Source: a candidate division Zixibacteria bacterium SM23_73_3
GTDB lineage: Bacteria > Zixibacteria > MSB-5A5 > SM1-73
Direction of reading: 5' to 3'
Length of the DNA stretch: 44,959 nucleotides
Assembly (NCBI GenBank): GCA_001304155.1
Contig: LJUX01000004.1
Location: 1-44,959, forward strand
Positions within the stretch are counted from its first letter, which is position 1; each line of letters opens with the position of its first letter. Below the pieces are notes generated by a model. It did not search any database. It was not told where the DNA came from and saw only the letters and a program-made list of their open reading frames with translations. The position numbers and the translations under genes are program-made. Of the stretch, positions 10,579 to 22,231 are shown piece after piece.

Positions 10579-11982
10579 TTAAAGCGAGCAGAGATACTCG
10601 TGGATAGATCTGGCGGCTTTACGTCCGGCACCCATGGCCAGGATAACGGTTGCTGCGCCGGTCACCACGTCCCCCCCAGCCCAGACCCTCTTTTTGGAGG
10701 TCTTACCAGTCTCCTCGTCGGCAACGATGTTTCCCTTCTTTCCCACCTCCAGACCGGGAGTAGCGGCGGCGATGAGGGGATTGGGGCTGTTACCGATGGC
10801 GCAGACCACAGCGTCCATGGGGATAATCGTCTCAGAGCCCTCAATGGGAACGGGCCTTCTCCTTCCGGAGGAGTCGGGTTCACCCAACTTCATCTTCAAA
10901 TACTCGATTTCTTTTACCCATCCGTTTTCATCCCCAATGTACCGAATGGGAAGGGTTAGAAAATCGAAGATAACTCCTTCCTCCTCTGCGTTCTCTATCT
11001 CCTCCAAGCGTGCCGGCAGTTCCTGTCTGGATCTCCTGTAGATGATCCTACTCTCTGCCCCCAGTCTCAGAGCAGTTCTGGCACAGTCCATGGCAACGTT
11101 TCCTCCGCCGATCACCGCTACCCTTTTGTGATTTTTTATGGGAGTAGAAAATTGGGGGAAGAGAAAACCCTTCATCAAATTCATTCTGGTCAGATATTCA
11201 TTTGCCGAATAAACCCCGTTTAGATTTTCGCCGGGAACGTCCATAAACCAGGGAAGTCCGGCGCCTGAGCCGACAAAGATGGCGTCGAATTCCTCCAGGA
11301 GACTGTCTATGGATCTGGTTTTGCCCACCACGTAGTCGGTCACCACCTCCACGCCCAGCTTTTTGAGATATTCAACCTCTCTTTTCACGATGACCTTGGG
11401 AAGCCGGAATTCGGGAATACCGTAAATCAAGACTCCACCCACCTCGTGCAGAGCCTCGAAGATGGTCACCTGGTGTCCTAACTTTATCAGATCTCCAGCC
11501 ACGGTGAGTCCGGCTGGTCCTCCGCCCACGACGGCAACCTTTCTTCCGGTAGAAGGTGGAATTTTGGGCATCTCCAGCTTACCCTGCTCTGCCTCCCAGT
11601 CTGCCAGGAACCGTTCCAGTCTGCCTACTGCAATCTGCCCCCCCTTCTTCACCAGAACGCACACTTCTTCACACTGCTCCTCCTGAGGGCAGACCCGGCC
11701 ACACATAGCGGGAAGACAGTTTTTATCCTTCAATATCCTGGTTCCTGCAGCGAAGTCCTTTTCTGCAATACTTTTGATAAATCCGGGGATGTCTATCTCC
11801 ACCGGACACTGGGCGACACACTTCGGGTTTTTGCACTGCAAGCATCTTTTTGCTTCTTGGACTGCAATTTCGACAGGATAACCCAGTGCCACCTCGTTGA
11901 AATTATGCCTTCGCACTTCAGGCGGTTGTTTGGGCATCTCCCTTCTATTTAAATCTAACTTCTTTTTCTGCGGCTCAGGCAT
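10579..11982 (-). CDS. nfnB: NfnB-like NADPH/FAD subunit (glutamate synthase small-subunit type)
   Basis: A 467-residue flavoprotein of the GltD/NfnB family. The N-terminal Fe-S region carries CLQCKNPKCVAQCP near 46 and CLPAMCGRVCP near 88 (two [4Fe-4S] clusters). The FAD Rossmann motif VAVVGGGPAGLTVAG is near 148 and the NAD(P)-binding VAVIGGGNVAMDCA near 290. WAGGDVVTGAATVI near the end is the second FAD contact. In NfnAB this subunit oxidises NADPH and carries the bifurcating FAD. GltD is the alternative, but no GltB gene is present and an NfnA gene lies just upstream, so NfnB is preferred. The 192-bp gap to nfnA is largely filled by a dispersed repeat element (12043-12161), which may loosen co-expression. 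Confidence 0.88.
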   Translation of the reverse strand: MPEPQKKKLDLNRREMPKQPPEVRRHNFNEVALGYPVEIAVQEAKRCLQCKNPKCVAQCPVEIDIPGFIKSIAEKDFAAGTRILKDKNCLPAMCGRVCPQEEQCEEVCVLVKKGGQIAVGRLERFLADWEAEQGKLEMPKIPPSTGRKVAVVGGGPAGLTVAGDLIKLGHQVTIFEALHEVGGVLIYGIPEFRLPKVIVKREVEYLKKLGVEVVTDYVVGKTRSIDSLLEEFDAIFVGSGAGLPWFMDVPGENLNGVYSANEYLTRMNLMKGFLFPQFSTPIKNHKRVAVIGGGNVAMDCARTALRLGAESRIIYRRSRQELPARLEEIENAEEEGVIFDFLTLPIRYIGDENGWVKEIEYLKMKLGEPDSSGRRRPVPIEGSETIIPMDAVVCAIGNSPNPLIAAATPGLEVGKKGNIVADEETGKTSKKRVWAGGDVVTGAATVILAMGAGRKAARSIHEYLCSL

Positions 11983-12174: not shown

Positions 12175-13023
12175 CTATTCAGGCGACGATGTGATAGCAT
12201 GCTCTTCACATCGGCTTGTTCTCAACGGAATCACCTCTTCGCGCATGTACGTTTTACGCCGCTGCAATAGCTCTGCCCAATTCACTTCGTGCCCGTCAAA
12301 ATCCGGTCCGTGCACGCAAGCAAATTTCGTGGTCTTTCCGACCGTGACCCGACACACGCCACACATCCCTGTCCCATCTATCATTATCGGATTCAAGCTC
12401 ACCACAGTTTTTATGCCTAAAGGTCGGCTCATATCCGATCCTCTCTTCAAAAGAAAGGTACAGCCGTTAATGATGATCCGGTTAATCGGCTCTGATGATT
12501 TGATGATCTCAGTAAGCCTTCCCACATGGCCCCTGTGATCCTTTGTTCCGTCCCGGGTGATGCAGATAAGCTCGTCGGAAACTTCCTTGAGCTTCTCCTC
12601 CCAATAGAGAAGATATGAGCTTCTGGCTTCGATAACCGTTATGACCTTGTTTTTCTTCTCCTTGAGTGCCCGGGCTATGGGAAAGATGCTTCCGATCCCG
12701 TAGCATCCGCCCAGACACAGAACCGTGCCATACTCTTTGATCTCCGTGGGATTGCCCAGTGGTCCCACCACGGTGGGAATACTTACTCCAGCTCTAAGTG
12801 ATGCCAGATGGTCGGTGGTGCTCCCTATGTTCTTTACAACAACGGTTACCGTCCCCTCTTCAACGTCCCAGTCAGCGATTGAGAGAGGTATTCTCTCGCC
12901 TCCATCATCGGCTCGCACGATCACGAACTGGCCCGGCTTCATCTGGCGGGCAACCGCCGGAGCCTCCAGCATCAGGAGGTGAATATTGGGTACGATCATC
13001 TGGCTCTCTATGACCTTAAACAT
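12175..13023 (-). CDS. nfnA: NfnA-like NADH/FAD/[2Fe-2S] subunit
   Basis: A 282-residue ferredoxin-NADP reductase-type subunit. The FAD-binding barrel carries RIPLSIADWD near 44. The nucleotide-binding domain has LCLGGCYGIGSIFPIARAL near 104. The C-terminal [2Fe-2S] ligands lie in GTGMCGVCRVTVG and FACVHGPDFDGHEVNW (near 217-250), diagnostic of the NfnA/SudB family. NfnAB couples NADPH oxidation to reduction of NAD+ and ferredoxin by flavin-based bifurcation; PyrK and sulfide dehydrogenase are relatives. The ATG overlaps the stop of the NuoG-like gene by 8 nt, so the two are translationally coupled. This ties NfnAB to the NADH/H-cluster module and is an unusual arrangement. Confidence 0.9.
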   Translation of the reverse strand: MFKVIESQMIVPNIHLLMLEAPAVARQMKPGQFVIVRADDGGERIPLSIADWDVEEGTVTVVVKNIGSTTDHLASLRAGVSIPTVVGPLGNPTEIKEYGTVLCLGGCYGIGSIFPIARALKEKKNKVITVIEARSSYLLYWEEKLKEVSDELICITRDGTKDHRGHVGRLTEIIKSSEPINRIIINGCTFLLKRGSDMSRPLGIKTVVSLNPIMIDGTGMCGVCRVTVGKTTKFACVHGPDFDGHEVNWAELLQRRKTYMREEVIPLRTSRCEEHAITSSPE

Positions 13024-15547
13024 TTTTCTTCCTTATTTTCACTGGATGTGGATTAGGTCCAACCGATTCTCCCCGGAGCAGTGTGACATGCAGCGTTCCT
13101 TTTGGTTGTTCGCTTACCATTCGTGCAGGCCAGGTCTTCTCAAAATGGCTTGAGGTCACCACCACTTCGTCCCTTTCAGATATACCAGCTTTTTTAGCAT
13201 CCTCTGAGTTAATATCCACCACTCCTGGGGCAAACAATGCACTTGCCCCCTCTACCCAGGTGGAGAGAGGAAATCCCCGATACGTATGCTCAACCATTGA
13301 AGTAGTTAGGAGAAAGGGTAACTTTTTGTCTGCCTTCTTTGTCCCAGAAGACCTTCTTTGAGAAACGGTCAACTCTCCTTCACACGTCAGGGAAGTTGCT
13401 TTTCGAGCGGGATTATCAAAATCTCCAAATCCTTTTACCAGAGAAGATATCTCTTCATGAATCTCCCGGGCGCTGGAGAAATCAAAGCCTTTGGCTCCCA
13501 TCTTCTTAGCGATGCGACAGAGTATCTCCCAATCGGGCAAGGCTTCACCTGGTGGATCCACCGCTTTTCTAACTCGTTGAATTCTTCCCTCGCCGTTGAT
13601 GAACGTTCCGTCCACCTCGGTAAAAGCCGCCGAAGGAAGAACCAGATCGCCTCCATCCCAGGGAACGGGAGGATAAATGTTCTGGACAATCAAGAATTCA
13701 GAGGGGGGTCTTAAGTTCGGAGGCACCTCCCCCATAAGGTAAAGCATCTTCAATCTCTTGCCCGATGAGAATATCTCTTTATTCGAGCGAGAAGAAAGAT
13801 GGGGGATATCGGCATTCCATTTTTTTCTTAGACCAGCTATCCTCTTTTTATCAGTGGATGAAAATCCACCGGGCAGAAGTTCAGGGTAGGCACCCATGAG
13901 AATGGAACCGAATAGATTGCTCTGGGCTGGCAGGGGGAGAACCCCGGCACCGATATTTCGTGCTAATCTTTCGATAGCCTCAAGAATCTGGGGGCTTTGG
14001 TCGTATGGCAGAAATTCTGAACCCACCAGGATCACAACAGCCGAGGTCCCTTTTAGCGTCTTAGCCACAGTGGCAAGCTCGTCACCGAGACTTTCACCTA
14101 TCCCCTTTGATTTTGATCGTGTAGTCCCGGTTCTCTTTTTTTCGGTCAATCTCACAAGAGAATGGAGAAGACTAACTTCTGTGCCAGGAACTGGCTGAAT
14201 CCATTTGTCGGCGATTACGGAGAGGCTGTGATGCCGCGGATGGATGCTGATGATTTTTGCTCCCCTGGCAATGGCTTTTCGTAACTCCACCCCTACCACG
14301 GATCTTCCAAACCTTGTATCCAGCCCGATACAAAGGATAACAGAGGCTTCTTGCAGGTCCGAAAGAGGGGCACCCATCCTCATAAGGTCTAAGTATGTGT
14401 TGAAACCAGATTCGTAGAACGATCTTGCAGTGGTATCAATATTGTGCGAGCCTAAAGCCACCCGGGCAAATTTTTGAGCCAGGTATAAATCTTCATTGCA
14501 AAAGTTAGGTGGGATAAGCATGCCGAAGTCTTCGCCTGAGCAGGCTGAAAGTTTTTCAGCCGCTAACTCGATAGCCTCCTCCCAGAAGATATCCACCTTG
14601 GTGCCGTTCTGGACCTTATATGGTCTCCTCAGTCGCTGGTAATTGCCTACCAGTTCAGTTACACAGAATCTCCCTTTAACGCAAAGCTGTCCATTATTCA
14701 CCATCGGGTCTTCGGCTGGCAGACTGCCAATGACTTCCTCTCCCTTTACCTGAAGACTTATCTGGCATCCTACCCCACACAAAGGACATGTGGTGATCTC
14801 CTCTCGATCCGCTTTGCCGTCCCATTTCCTGACCTTTTCCGAGAGAGCTCCGGTAGGGCAGACTGAGACACAGGCACCGCAGAATTCGCAGCCCGCCTCC
14901 AGGTGAGTACGGTCATAAGCTGGACCAATTACGGTATAACGTCCCCTCTGTTTAAAAGCCAAGGTGTTAGCGGTGCGAATCTCCTGACACATCCGGATGC
15001 ATCTTCCGCAGAGGATACAGAGGTTATAATCCCGGTCGTAAAAGGGGTCATCTTTTTCCACTCGCAAATGGCGATAATAGACCGGATAGTCAATCTCCTT
15101 CACTTCTAACCTCTCCACCACCTCCTGCAGTTCGCACTGGCCATCGTTAGGACAATACCGGCATCCAGTGATAACCCCAGCCTTGCGAATGGTGCCCATG
15201 TATTCTTTACATTCATCCTTTTCGTCACAGATCAAGCAACTTGAAGTATGCTCGCTCAAAATCAGCTGCAAAATCTCTTTTCTTTCTGCCTGAACCTGAG
15301 CAGTGTGAGTTCTTATAACCATTCCCTCCTCCACCGGCGTGGTGCAAGCCGTGGGAAAGCCCCGCATCCCCTCCACCTCCACTATGCACATGCGACACCC
15401 TCCAAAGGGAGTCAAATCCTGATGAGCGCAGAGCGTGGGGATATAGATGTTATTCCGCTCTGCAGCTTGAAGTATGGTCAGCCCTCTTTTTACTTCAAGG
15501 ACCTGATTGTCTATATTTATGGTTACCTTCTCATTTTGCTTGCTCAT
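13016..15547 (-). CDS. NuoG/HydA-like Fe-S subunit with degenerate molybdopterin-type domain
   Basis: An 843-residue subunit resembling NuoG and the FdhA-like subunits of NADH-linked complexes. In order: plant-type [2Fe-2S] domain (C40, C51, C54, C68), NuoG-type cluster (H100, C104, C107, C113), two [4Fe-4S] motifs (177-230), a molybdopterin-oxidoreductase Fe4S4 motif (C254, C257, C261, C289), then the long molybdopterin-type domain and its C-terminal beta domain. At the formate dehydrogenase active site (ARx-Sec/Cys-His) this protein has ARSFY, with Phe377-Tyr378. It should therefore not be a formate dehydrogenase and probably relays electrons as NuoG does. No H-cluster motif is present. The start at 15547 follows GGAG and overlaps HydB by 17 nt. 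An earlier start at 15586 has a weaker site. Confidence 0.85.
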   Translation of the reverse strand: MSKQNEKVTINIDNQVLEVKRGLTILQAAERNNIYIPTLCAHQDLTPFGGCRMCIVEVEGMRGFPTACTTPVEEGMVIRTHTAQVQAERKEILQLILSEHTSSCLICDEKDECKEYMGTIRKAGVITGCRYCPNDGQCELQEVVERLEVKEIDYPVYYRHLRVEKDDPFYDRDYNLCILCGRCIRMCQEIRTANTLAFKQRGRYTVIGPAYDRTHLEAGCEFCGACVSVCPTGALSEKVRKWDGKADREEITTCPLCGVGCQISLQVKGEEVIGSLPAEDPMVNNGQLCVKGRFCVTELVGNYQRLRRPYKVQNGTKVDIFWEEAIELAAEKLSACSGEDFGMLIPPNFCNEDLYLAQKFARVALGSHNIDTTARSFYESGFNTYLDLMRMGAPLSDLQEASVILCIGLDTRFGRSVVGVELRKAIARGAKIISIHPRHHSLSVIADKWIQPVPGTEVSLLHSLVRLTEKKRTGTTRSKSKGIGESLGDELATVAKTLKGTSAVVILVGSEFLPYDQSPQILEAIERLARNIGAGVLPLPAQSNLFGSILMGAYPELLPGGFSSTDKKRIAGLRKKWNADIPHLSSRSNKEIFSSGKRLKMLYLMGEVPPNLRPPSEFLIVQNIYPPVPWDGGDLVLPSAAFTEVDGTFINGEGRIQRVRKAVDPPGEALPDWEILCRIAKKMGAKGFDFSSAREIHEEISSLVKGFGDFDNPARKATSLTCEGELTVSQRRSSGTKKADKKLPFLLTTSMVEHTYRGFPLSTWVEGASALFAPGVVDINSEDAKKAGISERDEVVVTSSHFEKTWPARMVSEQPKGTLHVTLLRGESVGPNPHPVKIRKKNV

Positions 15548-17435
15548 CAGAACTTCTCCGCTTGGATCTGATGATGATGGCATCACCGGCTATGGCGTCG
15601 AAACGGCAGATCTCATAGCAGGCTCTGCACTTTATACATTTGGATGGATCCAGGTTGTGTGGTTCTGCTCTGGGCCCGGTGATGGCACCGGTGGGGCACA
15701 CACTGACGCAACGCTGACATCCAGTACATTTTTCCGGGATAACCCGGTATTCGATAAGCTCCCTGCAGACTGCAGACGGACAGTGTTTCTCCGTCACATG
15801 CAGGAGATATTCCGGTCGGAAGTAGCGCAGAGTGGTCAAAACCGGATTGGGAGCGGTCTGTCCCAGACCACAGAGCGAGCCCCTCTTTACCGTTTCGCCC
15901 AAGGTCTGAAGCTTGGTCAGATCGTCTGCTTGACCCTGCCCCTTTATGATCCTTTCCAGAATCTCCACCATATGCCTGCTTCCCACACGACAGGGGGAAC
16001 ATTTGCCACAGGACTCCTTCTGGGTGAAGTCCAAAAAGTAGTGGGCCACGTCCACCACGCAGGTATCCTCATCCATCACGATCAGACCTCCTGATCCCAT
16101 TATGGATCCAGCCGCGTCTAAGGATTCATAATCTACCGGCGTGTCCAGAAACTCTTCAGAAAGGCATCCTCCCGAGGGTCCGCCAGTTTGCACTGCTTTG
16201 AATGGCTTCCTGGTGCCACCCCCGATATCAAAAATGATCTTTCTGAGCGTCATTCCCAAAGGTACCTCGACCAAGCCCGAGCGTCTCACCTTTCCCACCA
16301 AAGAGAACGTTTTGGTACCGTGATTTCCCCGGGTGCCGTAACCTTTATACCAAGAGGCTCCATTCCTCAGAATGTTGGGGAGAGTTCCCAGGGTTTCCAC
16401 GTTGTTGATGATGGTGGGCATGCCAAAAAGACCAGCCACTGCAGGAAATGGAGGTCGGGATTTGGGCATGCCCCTTTTCCCCTCGATGGAGGCGATAAGT
16501 GCGGTCTCCTCACCACAAACAAAAGCTCCCGCCCCTTCCCTTATGGTGATGTCGAAATTGAAGCGAGAGTTCTGTATATTCTTGCCCAGGAAACCATAAT
16601 CCTTCATCTGGGTTATGGCTTTTTTTAAACGAGCGATGGCTAAAGGATATTCTGCCCTTATATAAATATATCCGTGTGAAGCACCGATGGCATAGGCGGC
16701 GATCAGCATCCCCTCAAGAACTGAGTGTGGATCGCCTTCTATTAAGGATCGGTTCATGAACGCACCTGGATCCCCTTCATCCGCATTGCAGATCAAATAC
16801 TTGGATTCCCCGGGAGAGTTTCTACATATCTCCCATTTTTTGTACGTGGGAAACCCGGCCCCCCCTCTTCCCCGTATCCCTGCTTCGCCCACCTCTGCGA
16901 TCACCTCCTGGGGCAATTTGCTAAAGGCTTGCATGATGCCAGCATATCCTTCATTAGCCAAGTAATGGTCGATCTCCTCCGGGTCTATGAATCCGCAGTT
17001 TCTGAGCACCACTCTTACTTGGGGTTTCAACATAGGAAGATCAAAGAAGGCGGGAACTCCATTTGTGAATTCCACGTTCTCATCTCCGAAGTGCCCCACC
17101 GCAAATTGAAGGAGAGGGTCGCCTTTGATTAAATACGACTCAATTATTCTTGTTGCTTTTTCCGGGTTGACATTAGCATAGCTTATCCGGGGACGACTTG
17201 GTAGCCTAATATCCATAAGTGGTTCCAGATAACAGGGTCCGATGCACCCCACCTGGACGATTTTTGCCTTCAATCGGTTTTCTTTTAGGGTCTTTTGAAC
17301 CGACTTTAGCACCTCCATGGCGCCGGCGGCCCTGCCGCAGGAGGCTGTCCCCAAATAGATGACCGGGATTTTACTGGCCTTCAGCAAGTTCCATTTCTTT
17401 TGAGCTTCTTTTCTTTTTTTCTGGTAACTATTCAT
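15531..17435 (-). CDS. hydB: NuoF/HydB-like FMN, NADH-binding subunit
   Basis: A 634-residue diaphorase subunit of the HydB/HndC type. It has an N-terminal thioredoxin-like region (Cys near 33, 64 and 68, the last two in VGCIGPC). The NuoF core follows, with GRGGAGFPTYKKW near 188 and the FMN/NADH segment NADEGDPGAFMNR near 215. The N3-type cluster motif ESCGKCSPCRVG is near 474. A C-terminal 2[4Fe-4S] ferredoxin (CTGCQRCVSVCP near 570, CIKCRACYEICR near 600) is present in bifurcating hydrogenases and absent from most respiratory NuoF. It would bind NADH and the bifurcating FMN and pass electrons to the NuoG-like subunit. It overlaps hydC by 8 nt (ATGAATAG), indicating coupled translation. 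Confidence 0.93.
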   Translation of the reverse strand: MNSYQKKRKEAQKKWNLLKASKIPVIYLGTASCGRAAGAMEVLKSVQKTLKENRLKAKIVQVGCIGPCYLEPLMDIRLPSRPRISYANVNPEKATRIIESYLIKGDPLLQFAVGHFGDENVEFTNGVPAFFDLPMLKPQVRVVLRNCGFIDPEEIDHYLANEGYAGIMQAFSKLPQEVIAEVGEAGIRGRGGAGFPTYKKWEICRNSPGESKYLICNADEGDPGAFMNRSLIEGDPHSVLEGMLIAAYAIGASHGYIYIRAEYPLAIARLKKAITQMKDYGFLGKNIQNSRFNFDITIREGAGAFVCGEETALIASIEGKRGMPKSRPPFPAVAGLFGMPTIINNVETLGTLPNILRNGASWYKGYGTRGNHGTKTFSLVGKVRRSGLVEVPLGMTLRKIIFDIGGGTRKPFKAVQTGGPSGGCLSEEFLDTPVDYESLDAAGSIMGSGGLIVMDEDTCVVDVAHYFLDFTQKESCGKCSPCRVGSRHMVEILERIIKGQGQADDLTKLQTLGETVKRGSLCGLGQTAPNPVLTTLRYFRPEYLLHVTEKHCPSAVCRELIEYRVIPEKCTGCQRCVSVCPTGAITGPRAEPHNLDPSKCIKCRACYEICRFDAIAGDAIIIRSKRRSSDEQAK

Positions 17436-17895
17436 ACTTATCTAAAATCTCCTTTAAACGAATCACCGTCATCCGGCTGTAGATGTCGTCATTTATCTGG
17501 ATCACAGGTGCCAGAGCACAACACCCTAAGCAAGCCACTCGCTCTAAATCGAACCGTTTGTCTTTGGTTGTCTGTCCCGGGGAGATATCCAGTTCCCTCT
17601 CCACCGCTTCGCAGAGAATCTGCCCCCCCCGTACGTGGCAAGCGGTTCCCAAACAGACCTTGATGGAGTTTCTGCCAGGGGCGTCAAACCGAAACTGGGA
17701 ATAAAAAGAGGCCACTCCAAAGATTTGATTTTCGGAGATTTTCAAAAAACGGGAAATACGTTTGATGGCTTCTTCTGAGATATACCCGCGTTTTTCCTGG
17801 ACCCTTTGGAGGATGGGGATTAAGTTTCCTTCCTCACTTTTGAATCCGGAAAATATGTGGATTAAATCTTTATTAGTCACAGAACGTTCTTTCAT
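17428..17895 (-). CDS. hydC: NuoE/HydC-like [2Fe-2S] subunit
   Basis: A 155-residue thioredoxin-like [2Fe-2S] protein of the NuoE/HydC/HndA family, at the usual length. An N-terminal helical bundle (1-70, including ILQRVQEKRGYISEEAI) precedes the cluster domain with Cys ligands in VCLGTACHVRGG (near 80-86) and VACLGCCALAPV (near 120-125). It pairs with the NuoF-like subunit encoded next, with which it overlaps by 8 nt. It lies 28 bp after the H-cluster protein. The ribosome-binding site is weak, so translation may depend partly on readthrough coupling. Confidence 0.93.
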   Translation of the reverse strand: MKERSVTNKDLIHIFSGFKSEEGNLIPILQRVQEKRGYISEEAIKRISRFLKISENQIFGVASFYSQFRFDAPGRNSIKVCLGTACHVRGGQILCEAVERELDISPGQTTKDKRFDLERVACLGCCALAPVIQINDDIYSRMTVIRLKEILDKYE

Positions 17896-17923: not shown

Positions 17924-19264
17924 TTATCCCTCCTTCCCCTTTTGTGCTAGAAAGATACAATCGGTGAGTTCTACTTCTCCTCTGACAAAATCCTCCGCGA
18001 AAGCCATGCAGGTGGGTGCTCCGCAGCAGCCGCAGTCTATCTGGCGGAGTTTCTGATATACCCTGTCTCTTTCCTTCATTCTCTTGATGGACGTTTCCAA
18101 ATCGGTGTCGAAGTATTTGGTGGGACGAGGCAAAATCGGGTTTTCCAGAAAATAATATCCTTCTTTTAGCTTCCGGTCAATATCCTTATCATCGATTTTT
18201 ATGCGCTCTTCATACTTGCCTCTTTGCTTTATGCTGTTGGTACGAGCAACATATGGGTTCTCTACATTAAAAGTCCCGCCAATGCAGCCCAACATACAGG
18301 CCATAGCCTCAACGAAATCAACTTTTCGCAGTCGTGAATTCTCGATATCATCGAATATTTTCATCACGTGATCCAGGCCGGAGACGGCCAACCAATTCTC
18401 CATATCCACCGCCCGGGTTATCCCCCCAAGTGTGGCCCAGCCTGCGTTGAAGGAAAAACCTTTTGGCACCTGACTTTGATCGAACGTTTCCTTTATTGTC
18501 ACGATATGAGGGAGTAATACCGAATAAACGTCATCTATGGAGACAACCCCATCAAACCAAGATCTGGCCTTTTCCGCCGGCTGTTTGATGGAGACGATCT
18601 TTGCCGGGCAGGGAGCTATGTAAGTTATTCCGATATCCTCCGGCTTTAGTCCCAACTTGGCCGGCAACTTTTTTCTGATCTCCCGGGCAGTCACCTCCCT
18701 GGGCACGTCCAGCGGAACCACCAGTTCCACCAAGTCAGGATATTTCACTTGAATTAATCTGAGCATGGAGGGACAGTGAGATGATATGAGAGGAAGCCGA
18801 CCCCGATATGTTTTCATATATTTAACCAATGCCCTGGCCAAAGCAGCAGAGGAGGCACTCACATCTACCACTTCGTCGAAACCGAGTTCTTTAAAAGCCA
18901 GATGAATGATGTAGGGATGAACGCTCGATTCGAACTGGGAATAGAGCACCGGGGAGGGCACCACCACTTTGCATTTGAAATGGGAAATCCCCTCTACTGG
19001 ATCAGTAATCGGAACAATGGCTCCTGAGGGGCATACGGATATGCAGGTGCCGCAATCAACGCAGAGATCTTCGGAGATGACCGCTTTGCCTCCTCTTACC
19101 CGAATGGCCTGGGTAGGACAGTGACGCATACAAGTCATGTGCCCGCGACATTTTTCCAAATCTACTTTATGAGCGTGATAATACTGTGCCAATTTATCTT
19201 TTGCTCTCCTATTAAAAACAAGAGGTGGCCATTTAACGTTTCGCGGATAAAAGAAGTTGCCCAA
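17924..19264 (-). CDS. hydS: HydS-like [FeFe]-hydrogenase large-subunit-domain protein
   Basis: A 446-residue iron-sulfur protein. N-terminal double [4Fe-4S] region: C39, C45, C49 with His42 (CRGHMTCMRHCP) where a Cys is usual, then C68, C71, C74, C78. The central H-cluster domain keeps all four cluster-binding Cys: C164 (SSHCPSM, motif L1), C219 (APCPAKI, L2), C323 and C327 (EAMACMLGCIGG, L3). The proton-relay Cys preceding C164 in catalytic enzymes is His. A C-terminal [4Fe-4S] domain holds C411, C414, C419 and C436. These substitutions fit the putatively sensory or low-activity HydS-like groups and not prototypical HydA; no PAS domain is present. The TTG start has no strong ribosome-binding site and is uncertain. 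It is first in the hydC-hydB-nuoG-nfnA-nfnB series. No maturation genes are in the window. Confidence 0.85.
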   Translation of the reverse strand: MGNFFYPRNVKWPPLVFNRRAKDKLAQYYHAHKVDLEKCRGHMTCMRHCPTQAIRVRGGKAVISEDLCVDCGTCISVCPSGAIVPITDPVEGISHFKCKVVVPSPVLYSQFESSVHPYIIHLAFKELGFDEVVDVSASSAALARALVKYMKTYRGRLPLISSHCPSMLRLIQVKYPDLVELVVPLDVPREVTAREIRKKLPAKLGLKPEDIGITYIAPCPAKIVSIKQPAEKARSWFDGVVSIDDVYSVLLPHIVTIKETFDQSQVPKGFSFNAGWATLGGITRAVDMENWLAVSGLDHVMKIFDDIENSRLRKVDFVEAMACMLGCIGGTFNVENPYVARTNSIKQRGKYEERIKIDDKDIDRKLKEGYYFLENPILPRPTKYFDTDLETSIKRMKERDRVYQKLRQIDCGCCGAPTCMAFAEDFVRGEVELTDCIFLAQKGKEG

Positions 19265-19324: not shown

Positions 19325-20149
19325 TTATATTGCATTTAATTCTAACTGTTCCAACACCATTTCTTCAATTTTTTTTCTTGGCATACTCAGGAGCTCCTTG
19401 GCGTTTAATTTTTTGACTTTCACAATTTGGTTTATTATGCTTAGTCCAAGGAAATACCCTGCTCTGTCTTCATAGATGTTATTTGGATCATCGACTTCGA
19501 ACAATGTTGTTTTAGGATTGCTTAAAGAAAAATTTTTCAATACGAATTTGTTTAATTCTCTTTCCTTTTGTTGGCATTTCTGAAGCCAGATTTTTAATTC
19601 TCTTTTTGAAAGATAATCCGCCCATAATGCTATACCGTCGTTTACGTTCATAATATCCATGGTCAGGTATGTAGCAAGGCCTTCGGTAATCAACTGACGC
19701 GAAGTAGATCGTTTCTCAGAGAAAGTATGAAAATAAAAATCTGGTGACTGCGTATAGTGTAAAGCATGAACAATTTCGTGTGTGATAAAGACGTCGACCC
19801 GCAATAATGTTTCATATGTTTCAATTGGTATCCACGCAATAAATCTTTTACGGTCTTTGAACGCATGTCCATTCGAGGTGTTTTGACCAACAAAAAGAAG
19901 AATATCTAAATGGGATGTGTCGAACCCCAAAGAACATATATTCTTTTCAATTATTTTCAACCGTGGTTTTATCAAATCCAGCCCTCTTTTAACTTCCGTT
20001 TTGGTAAGCGTCTTTGAAAAAAATTTTCTTCTAGCCCAATATTTAAAATAGTGCCCGAACAAAGCGGGATATGATCTTTCGTAAGCAGACAAATCGTTGT
20101 TTCGCAGGATATGTTTGATGTAACTATCTGTGAGATCAATAATATTCAT
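19325..20149 (-). CDS. Gluzincin-type zinc metallopeptidase-like protein
   Basis: A 274-residue protein with the zinc motif HEIVH (in VFITHEIVHALHY, near residue 123) and a downstream Glu in LITEGLATYLTM about 30 residues later. This spacing is typical of gluzincins, as in DUF2268-type predicted proteases. A Tyr- and Glu-rich helix near 228 (IYEDRAGYFLGLSII) may complete the active site. No signal peptide is seen, so it is probably cytoplasmic. It sits on the same strand between the DRTGG genes and hydS but has AT-rich base use and no evident redox role, so it may be an unrelated insertion. Substrate unknown. Confidence 0.75.
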   Translation of the reverse strand: MNIIDLTDSYIKHILRNNDLSAYERSYPALFGHYFKYWARRKFFSKTLTKTEVKRGLDLIKPRLKIIEKNICSLGFDTSHLDILLFVGQNTSNGHAFKDRKRFIAWIPIETYETLLRVDVFITHEIVHALHYTQSPDFYFHTFSEKRSTSRQLITEGLATYLTMDIMNVNDGIALWADYLSKRELKIWLQKCQQKERELNKFVLKNFSLSNPKTTLFEVDDPNNIYEDRAGYFLGLSIINQIVKVKKLNAKELLSMPRKKIEEMVLEQLELNAI

Positions 20150-20398: not shown

Positions 20399-21184
20399 TT
20401 AGATGAAAAACCTCATTTGCAGTGTGGTCCCTTTCTCAACCTCGCTTCTGATGTCCAACTCATCTGAGTTTTTCTTAATGTTCGGCAGTCCCATCCCGGA
20501 GCCGAATCCCATGGCTCTCATCTCTTCTGTGGCGGTGGTAAATCCCTCCTGCATAGCCAACTCCACATCCGGGATACCCTTCCCCTCATCCTCAATCACC
20601 ACCTGGATGAGCCCGGGAGTAACCGACAGATCAACTTTTGCCCTCTTGGCGTGCATAACCACGTTCATCTCCCCCTCGTAGGTGGAGATGGCAACTCTCC
20701 GCACCAGCTTGGGATCAAATCCAATTTTTTTCAGAATGGACTTCACCTTGGTGGATACCATCCCCGCATTGGCAAAATCGCTCCCTTGAATGAAGAACTC
20801 GCGGCTTAAGGACATCTCCTCAGTCCCTTGCCTCATCCAGCTGCCTTTTGCCCCCGAGTATCTCCCCCTCCTGGTTGAATCTATTCTAACGCAAGCCTCG
20901 TACATGTCCAACTTTGTGGAGAGTAAGATCAGCTGATTGTCTTTGGCAAACTTCTCCGAACCATCTTTGGGTTTTTTGCCCCGAATGAACACCACCCCCA
21001 CAAATTCAGCCATGTGGGCGGAGATTACAGCCTGCTGGGTCGCCAGTCCGGTAAGTAGAATCGAATTGGGTCTACCGAAGGCTAAAACATCGCTCATCAA
21101 ATCAGAAGCATATATATGCTCAACCTCGGTATCGAGTCTATCAACTCCCTCGATCACTGAAGCCTCCAGCGCACCTTTTATCAT
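20399..21184 (-). CDS. DRTGG domain fused to RsbT-like HATPase (anti-sigma kinase type)
   Basis: A protein of about 261 residues with two domains. Residues 1-105 are a DRTGG domain (IYASDLMSDVLAF, LLTGLATQQAV, VVFIRGKKP, LILLSTKLDMYEAC). Residues 120-261 are a GHKL ATPase of the RsbT/anti-sigma type, with N-box STYEGEMNVVMHA, G1 box DEGKGIPD and G2 box GFGSGMGLPNI. Such pairs recur beside NADH-linked [FeFe]-hydrogenase genes in anaerobes and are thought to be regulatory, possibly sensing nucleotide or redox state. That role is an inference. The start at 21184 follows GGAGATAAAA; a longer TTG start at 21235 is possible but its GGAGGG lies too far away. It follows a stand-alone DRTGG gene. Confidence 0.85.
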   Translation of the reverse strand: MIKGALEASVIEGVDRLDTEVEHIYASDLMSDVLAFGRPNSILLTGLATQQAVISAHMAEFVGVVFIRGKKPKDGSEKFAKDNQLILLSTKLDMYEACVRIDSTRRGRYSGAKGSWMRQGTEEMSLSREFFIQGSDFANAGMVSTKVKSILKKIGFDPKLVRRVAISTYEGEMNVVMHAKRAKVDLSVTPGLIQVVIEDEGKGIPDVELAMQEGFTTATEEMRAMGFGSGMGLPNIKKNSDELDIRSEVEKGTTLQMRFFI

Positions 21185-21292
21185 TTTTATCTCCACAATA
21201 TTTGCCCTGCTTCTGATCTTGACACAAACTACCAAACGGCTTGGTTCGGAAAGACCCTCCGGTGGATATTTCTACCCCATATCCGGGATTCG

Positions 21293-21628
21293 CTATTTGG
21301 CTCCCAAACCCAATCCATAAAGCTTCCCCACCAGCTCGAAGGTGGCCAGGTCGCTGGACAGGATGGCGATATTGTACTTGCTGGCAAGATCCACGGTATC
21401 TTGGGGAACCTCCTTTCCGCTGGTGATGATCACCGCGGAAACATCCACCAGATTGGCGGCAGGAACGATACTCTTATGAGTCTGAATCGTCAGCCAGAGA
21501 TTCCCAGACTTTGCGCCAGCCATAACGTCGCTTAACATATCCGAGACGAACACACCTTCCACGTCCCGGTGCTCGAACTTACTTAGTGGTTTGAGTCCGA
21601 TCTTCGTAATCAAGTCTTGAGTGGTCAT
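21293..21628 (-). CDS. Stand-alone DRTGG domain protein
   Basis: A 111-residue protein consisting of one DRTGG domain: VFVSDMLSDVMAGAK near 27, LWLTIQTHKSIVPAA near 45, AVIITSGKEVP near 66, IAILSSDLATFELVGKLY near 88. The DRTGG fold also occurs in phosphotransacetylase- and CBS-linked proteins and may bind nucleotides; its ligand is not known. AGGAGA precedes the ATG at a good distance. It lies 45 bp after the Cys-rich gene and upstream of the DRTGG-ATPase, so the three probably share a transcript. Confidence 0.88.
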   Translation of the reverse strand: MTTQDLITKIGLKPLSKFEHRDVEGVFVSDMLSDVMAGAKSGNLWLTIQTHKSIVPAANLVDVSAVIITSGKEVPQDTVDLASKYNIAILSSDLATFELVGKLYGLGLGAK

Positions 21629-21673: not shown

Positions 21674-22231
21674 TCAAAATAGAGGTTTTCTACCGGGTGG
21701 CGGTTCCAAGGAAAGCATGCCCACGTCATGAATAAAATCACCTTTGCACAAAGAAAGATCTTCAATCAGATTGAACGAGACGATCTTGATCATGGAGCGG
21801 GATGTATCCCTCCTCTGGTTGAAATAGTCGGTGAGCATATCCAGCTTGTGTGGAGGAATTGGCTCAGTCTTTGCCTCGGGGAGGAAGCCGAATGCCACCA
21901 GAATCCAGGTCTTTTGAGCTTCATATTTCTTTCGCAGAGTCTCAACCTCACAATCGGGCAAACATCCGGTGCAGTGCAAAAGTCCCATCAGGTCGTCAAA
22001 TTTCTCCACGTGGTTGCACCTGGTGCACTTCAGGTCGAATCGAAATGACTGAGCGTTTTCTGCCCGGCTCCAGAAATGGTCACCCTCACGGTATTTATCC
22101 CCAAGAATGGGATTATCCTCCACGGAAAAATATGTTCTCAACTCATTGCAGTGAAAGCATTTCTCGAAAACCACAAATCCAAACTGGATATTTGTCATTT
22201 CCCACTGGTGCTGGCATTCAGACATTTTCAT
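21674..22231 (-). CDS. Cys-rich putative zinc-binding protein of unknown function
   Basis: A 185-residue protein I do not recognise. It carries C5/H7 near the N-terminus, CFHC near 36, CTRC near 69 and CTGC with another Cys near 87, enough for one or two zinc (or iron-sulfur) sites of zinc-ribbon type. Residues 100-120 are hydrophobic (WILVAFGFL) but short for a membrane span. The C-terminal half has no motif I know. GGGAG precedes two closely spaced ATG codons (22231 and 22225). Position immediately upstream of the DRTGG pair suggests a part in the same regulatory or redox system, by context only. Confidence 0.7.
   Translation of the reverse strand: MKMSECQHQWEMTNIQFGFVVFEKCFHCNELRTYFSVEDNPILGDKYREGDHFWSRAENAQSFRFDLKCTRCNHVEKFDDLMGLLHCTGCLPDCEVETLRKKYEAQKTWILVAFGFLPEAKTEPIPPHKLDMLTDYFNQRRDTSRSMIKIVSFNLIEDLSLCKGDFIHDVGMLSLEPPPGRKPLF

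Follow-up and report, generated by a model that had tools for sequence, protein, structure and literature searches.

A HydS-like branch of group D [FeFe]-hydrogenase homologs in Zixibacteria genomes without HydE, HydF, and HydG: a possible iron-sulfur redox sensor

The window, which is the whole 44,959-nucleotide stretch of contig LJUX01000004.1 from candidate division Zixibacteria bacterium SM23_73_3, encodes a HydS-like protein of the group D [FeFe]-hydrogenases. The real oddity of this protein is that it belongs to a conserved HydS branch without maturases and, judging from the aligned residues, without the known proton paths. On balance, we favor the reading that it is a group D descendant that lacks the [2Fe] cofactor, does not turn over H2, and acts as an all Fe-S redox sensor that signals via an ATPase. 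A wider proposal, which we hold with a little less than even confidence, is that the HydS branch in Zixibacteria, Calditrichota, Ignavibacteria, Anaerolineae, and probably Aminicenantes abandoned [2Fe] and became an Fe-S sensor controlling a bifurcating transhydrogenase. This would make it a bacterial counterpart of Nar1, with one lineage having exchanged an H-cluster Cys for His.

The HydS-like gene lies at 17924-19264 on the minus strand, as do all the features located below, and its 446 aa ORF, which opens with TTG, is intact over its whole length. The true start is probably the TTG at 19192 (422 aa), because AGGAG precedes this codon, the N-termini of relatives start about 24 residues inside the longer ORF, and the AlphaFold2 model shows residues 1-25, which relatives lack, as disordered. 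Pfam recognized Fe_hyd_lg_C (100 bits, residues 100-330), Fer4 domains, and a C-terminal FeS domain (PF04060, 44 bits), and it found no PAS domain in the protein. The AlphaFold2 model had a pLDDT of 89.6, and its predicted fold matched PDB entries of [FeFe]-hydrogenases with E values of about 1e-21 and TM scores (query) of 0.55-0.64. Against the nearest relative, dN was 0.076 and dS was 2.5, which is saturated. This codon comparison indicates strong purifying selection.

Near the N-terminus, the first ferredoxin motif reads C39-x2-His42-x2-C45-x3-C49 (19118-19150), and the second [4Fe-4S] motif, C68-x2-C71-x2-C74-x3-C78 (19031-19063), is intact. The H-domain contains the L1 motif SSHCPSM (18764-18784), in which His163 is at the relay position and C164 is a ligand, the L2 motif (18599-18610), with the ligand C219 and the CpI K358 equivalent K222, and the L3 motif E319-A-M-A-C323-M-L-G-C327-I-G-G (18275-18310). 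We take K222 to be the counterpart of the CpI Lys that contacts a cyanide ligand of the H-cluster. The alignment has four columns for H-cluster ligands, and these are taken up by C164, C219, C323, and C327. The chain ends in a further [4Fe-4S] motif, C411-x2-C414-x4-C419-x16-C436 (17957-18034), which was identified by both Pfam and alignment. The preliminary description had reported the complete ligand set, the swap at the ferredoxin ligand, and the extra C-terminal domain, and these features were all recovered. A complete Cys set does not, however, demonstrate the presence of an H-cluster.

Family membership was determined with a maximum-likelihood tree of 97 proteins that included group A, B, and C anchors, whose group labels were based on length, domain tails, and tree position. 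All 66 group D rows, including the window protein and the Firmicutes group D proteins, formed one clade at 100/100, and the A, B, and C anchors were separate. This placement agrees with the earlier suggestion of a divergent, putatively sensory hydrogenase group and answers the phylogenetic check proposed with it: the protein is in group D, apart from canonical HydA. Identity as a canonical HydA was ruled out by the tree together with scores well below the TIGR02512 and TIGR04105 cut-offs. Within group D, the window protein is inside a 22-row clade, starred on the tree, of Zixibacteria, Calditrichota, Ignavibacteria, and Anaerolineae. Group D was anchored via a Thermoanaerobacterium protein (L140), which has E, D, and E at the exact spacings of E252, D265, and E289 in TamHydS (PMC10407848), and this match fixed the TamHydS numbering. 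Intact HydS copies were found in 28 genomes of Zixibacteria, most of them 62-86% identical. Two further genomes have HydS-like gene fragments only, G023:C1:558684-558851 (56 aa) and G106:C309:3153-3401 (83 aa), each possibly a pseudogene or the result of a contig edge.

TamHydS, the group D/M2e protein of Thermoanaerobacter mathranii, shares with the window protein its clade, the PAS-less layout, the replaced relay Cys, an adjoining GHKL ATPase, and the C-terminal Cx2Cx4Cx16C motif, a group D feature (PMC8163306). The preliminary description had treated the lack of a PAS domain or kinase on the chain, next to electron-transfer genes, as an anomaly; this is, instead, the usual group D arrangement. 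The window protein differs from TamHydS in having lost E252, S249, and D265, in residing in a genome without HydE, HydF, or HydG, and in belonging to an operon without HydA. Another difference is at ferredoxin ligand 42: two complete N-terminal [4Fe-4S] motifs are a group D trait, and here His42 replaces the second Cys of the first motif.

The columns of the active site were then compared among the 28 orthologs. His163 had been read as a changed proton relay, and it does sit in the C299 (CpI) relay column, but the site is variable: F is its most frequent residue (8 orthologs), followed by Y (7) and H (6), with E and C in 2 each and Q, L, and N in 1 each. A functional proton relay at His163 was ruled out by this lack of conservation. 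The alternative group D path, E252-E289-S249-D265, corresponds to I282-E319-L279-S295 in the window protein, so that E319 is the one residue of the four that is kept. I282 (18419-18421) is at the position of the proton-relay residue E252, and TamHydS with E252V or E252D has less than 0.01% of its H2 oxidation left (PMC10407848). The enclosing clade comprises 43 rows of the tree alignment, and all of them lack E at this position. As far as aligned residues can tell, both known proton paths are lost in the window protein. In Bacteroidales and Desulfuromonas, V occupies the E252 position in some relatives whose genomes do encode maturases. HydF was present for 10 of the 13 rows with E at this position vs 9 of the 50 without it, a comparison that involves only 2-3 independent pairs on the tree, too few for significance.

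Ligand columns varied to different degrees. C323 is His in 13 of the 28 orthologs, and the C323His orthologs sampled in the tree all belong to a single starred clade of 11 rows, with the window protein outside it. The second ferredoxin ligand, position 42, is His in 22, Arg in 6, and Cys in none, and the accessory-cluster Cys are otherwise all kept. The K222 column is Lys in 26 of the 28; the equivalent residue is Ile in L010 (G086) and Arg in L007 (G017). Relaxed columns such as position 163, along with the two genomes that have fragments only, could suggest that HydS is a functionless, decaying hydrogenase relic. We find this idea hardly credible given the low dN against a saturated dS, the long intact ORFs in 28 genomes, and the retention of the accessory-cluster Cys at every position except 42.

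The absence of maturases is the other main line of evidence. A PF02906 protein was found in 29 of 133 Zixibacteria genomes, and in 28 of these 29 it was HydS-like only. The search of the 133 genomes detected HydG and HydF in none of the 28 HydS carriers, and HydE was likewise found in none of them. HydG and HydF exceeded the cut-off in a single genome, G113, which has two canonical HydA (299 and 291 bits) with HydE in the same cluster and no HydS (G113:C106, C160, C54). Recovery of these matches shows that the maturase search works in Zixibacteria. The source genome of the window is 82% complete, and an assembly gap as the cause of the missing maturases was ruled out by the 28 carriers, 16 of which have a completeness of 90% or more and a contamination of 5% or less. 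One carrier, L092, is a single-record 3.6 Mb chromosome (CP070674.1). HydE, HydF, and HydG are expected in the genome of a functional [FeFe]-hydrogenase, and none of the three was detected in the genome that encodes the window HydS.

Missing known maturases are not, however, strict proof of a missing cofactor, as seen in one Ignavibacteria family with canonical HydA and no HydF in most genomes. Most members of this family (G137, G138, and G180-G189; L179, L180, and L221-L232) have a canonical group A HydA, at about 330-341 bits, plus a group C-type homolog. HydF was present in 2 of its 12 genomes; G137 and G138 have intact HydA motifs, and HydE, HydF, and HydG were all absent from these two genomes. 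Either these HydA proteins lack the cofactor too, or they are matured by another route, or the MAGs lost these genes together. These cases limit our confidence in a HydS without [2Fe]. A few species with [FeFe] hydrogenase genes and no maturases were also noted with ProPhylo (PMC3226654), and, beyond this remark, we found no report of a maturase-free HydS clade in the openly searchable literature.

These observations bear on the possibility that HydS does sense H2, by means of a complete H-cluster that unrecognized machinery assembles. The four H-cluster Cys and K222 still form a classical site in the window protein, which is a counterpoint to the loss of [2Fe], and both the Ignavibacteria HydA without HydF and the ProPhylo genomes leave room for a maturation route that escapes detection. 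We nevertheless regard a true H2 sensor as rather unlikely, since all 28 carriers lack the maturases, both known proton-relay sites are lost, and close orthologs with the same operon have C323 replaced by His.

Upstream of HydS, its constant partner is a protein with a DRTGG domain and a GHKL (anti-sigma-F-like) ATPase domain (20399-21235), which is a separate chain encoded two genes upstream. In all 88 loci with sufficient sequence ahead of HydS, a gene matching the DRTGG/GHKL ATPase precedes it on its own strand at a distance of no more than 1.2 kb. In the window, the ATPase gene is preceded by that of a DRTGG-domain protein (21293-21628), identified by Pfam and gene-order comparison, and by that of an uncharacterized Cys-rich protein of 185 aa (21674-22231), which is the first gene of the cluster and is conserved in this clade. 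The 185 aa protein has no Pfam match, is the first cluster gene in 31 loci, and has lost its Cys pairs in Acidobacteria. Between the ATPase and HydS, the window has a DUF2268 gene (19325-20149), predicted to encode a Zn protease-like protein, which is at that place in no other locus. Our literature search found nothing on an [FeFe] hydrogenase together with DRTGG.

Downstream, domain and gene-order evidence identified a NuoE/HydC-like [2Fe-2S] subunit (17428-17895), a NuoF/HydB-like FMN/NADH subunit (15531-17435) whose N-terminal region is of the [2Fe-2S] type and whose C-terminal region is ferredoxin-like, an NfnA/FNR-like FAD-NAD(P) subunit (12175-13023), and an NfnB/GltD-like NADPH-FAD subunit (10579-11982). 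Between NuoF and NfnA is a NuoG-like subunit, NuoG', with a formate dehydrogenase (FDH)-like molybdopterin domain (13016-15586). NuoG' resembles FDH alpha subunits, and the catalytic Cys is replaced by Phe in the window (ARSFYES) and by Phe or other residues across the clade. Formate dehydrogenase activity was ruled out by this replacement. The gene order of the window clade is u185-DRTGG-DRTGG/ATPase-HydS-NuoE-NuoF-NuoG'-NfnA-NfnB, with an exception downstream in the Anaerolineae locus L099. In Firmicutes bifurcating HydABC operons with HydS, the order is ATPase(s)-HydS-(DRTGG)-NuoE-NuoF-HydA. The part from the ATPase to NuoF is shared with the window, where NuoG'-NfnA-NfnB replaces the catalytic HydA.

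NuoG' matched PDB 8oh5 of the Stn family. The Stn transhydrogenase of Sporomusa ovata (StnABC) pairs HydB/C-like subunits with a GltD-NuoG fusion (PMC10482914), and the combination of a HydB/HydC-like module with NuoG-like and GltD/NfnB-like parts is the same in the window. The two systems differ in that StnC is a GltD-NuoG fusion without NfnA, whereas the window has NuoG' and NfnB as separate genes and also has NfnA. The window operon, in addition, has the dead FDH-like domain attached and HydS and the GHKL ATPase at its head. Based on its likeness to Stn, NuoEFG'-NfnAB probably transfers electrons among NADPH, NADH, and ferredoxin, and it may do so by electron bifurcation.

Another possible explanation for HydS is that it belongs to the NuoEFG'-NfnAB complex, with a structural or electron-transfer role in which its clusters extend or dock the electron wire without any signaling. 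NuoE begins only 28 bp downstream of HydS in a tight operon, the gene order is common to Zixibacteria, Calditrichota, Ignavibacteria, and Bacteroidales, HydS is rich in Fe-S clusters, and the operon lacks the hydrogenase subunit seen in Firmicutes. Nevertheless, NuoF was found within 4 kb downstream of HydS in 49 of 72 loci, vs the GHKL ATPase in 88 of 88, and Firmicutes HydS adjoins a complete HydABC yet is none of its named subunits. We consider a subunit role unlikely, while giving it some weight.

For the favored sensor, we propose that this branch kept the sensor-ATPase cassette and lost the [2Fe] cofactor. The H-domain site would then contain no more than a cubane or, like Nar1, some other Fe-S cluster, and it would be electronically linked to the C-terminal cluster and to both N-terminal ones. 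The redox or occupancy state of HydS may be read by the upstream DRTGG/GHKL-ATPase proteins, which could in turn adjust the downstream Stn-like, predicted bifurcating NADH/ferredoxin/NADPH module. The gene order is what suggests signaling through the ATPase.

Nar1 works without HydE, HydF, and HydG. Nar1 has no [2Fe], yet it binds [4Fe-4S] clusters and an unexpected [2Fe-2S] cluster that was proposed to occupy the empty [2Fe] cavity, and, therefore, the H-domain fold tolerates the loss of [2Fe] (PMC12621388). Nar1/IOP1 and the window HydS are set side by side here by description, as a functional analogy between H-domains that lack, or are proposed to lack, [2Fe]. They differ in that Nar1 acts in the CIA pathway and the window HydS is encoded together with a GHKL ATPase in a redox operon of a bacterium. 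An H-domain with Fe-S sites and no maturases, as in Nar1 (PMC12621388), could also mean that HydS carries or scaffolds Fe-S clusters, a role that has been proposed for the eukaryotic protein. This seems very improbable to us because the constant partner is a GHKL ATPase and the operon is fixed around one redox module and contains no Fe-S assembly genes.

Group D proteins are proposed H2 sensors, and the sole characterized member takes up an H-cluster when matured artificially. That selection maintains a large clade in maturase-free genomes suggests that what is conserved in the cassette may be Fe-S redox sensing linked to a GHKL ATPase, and H2 may be only one input among others. PF02906 proteins should, thus, not be annotated as hydrogenases from the Cys set alone. 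The HydS proteins of this branch also offer bacterial material for studying how the H-domain may evolve after [2Fe] is lost.
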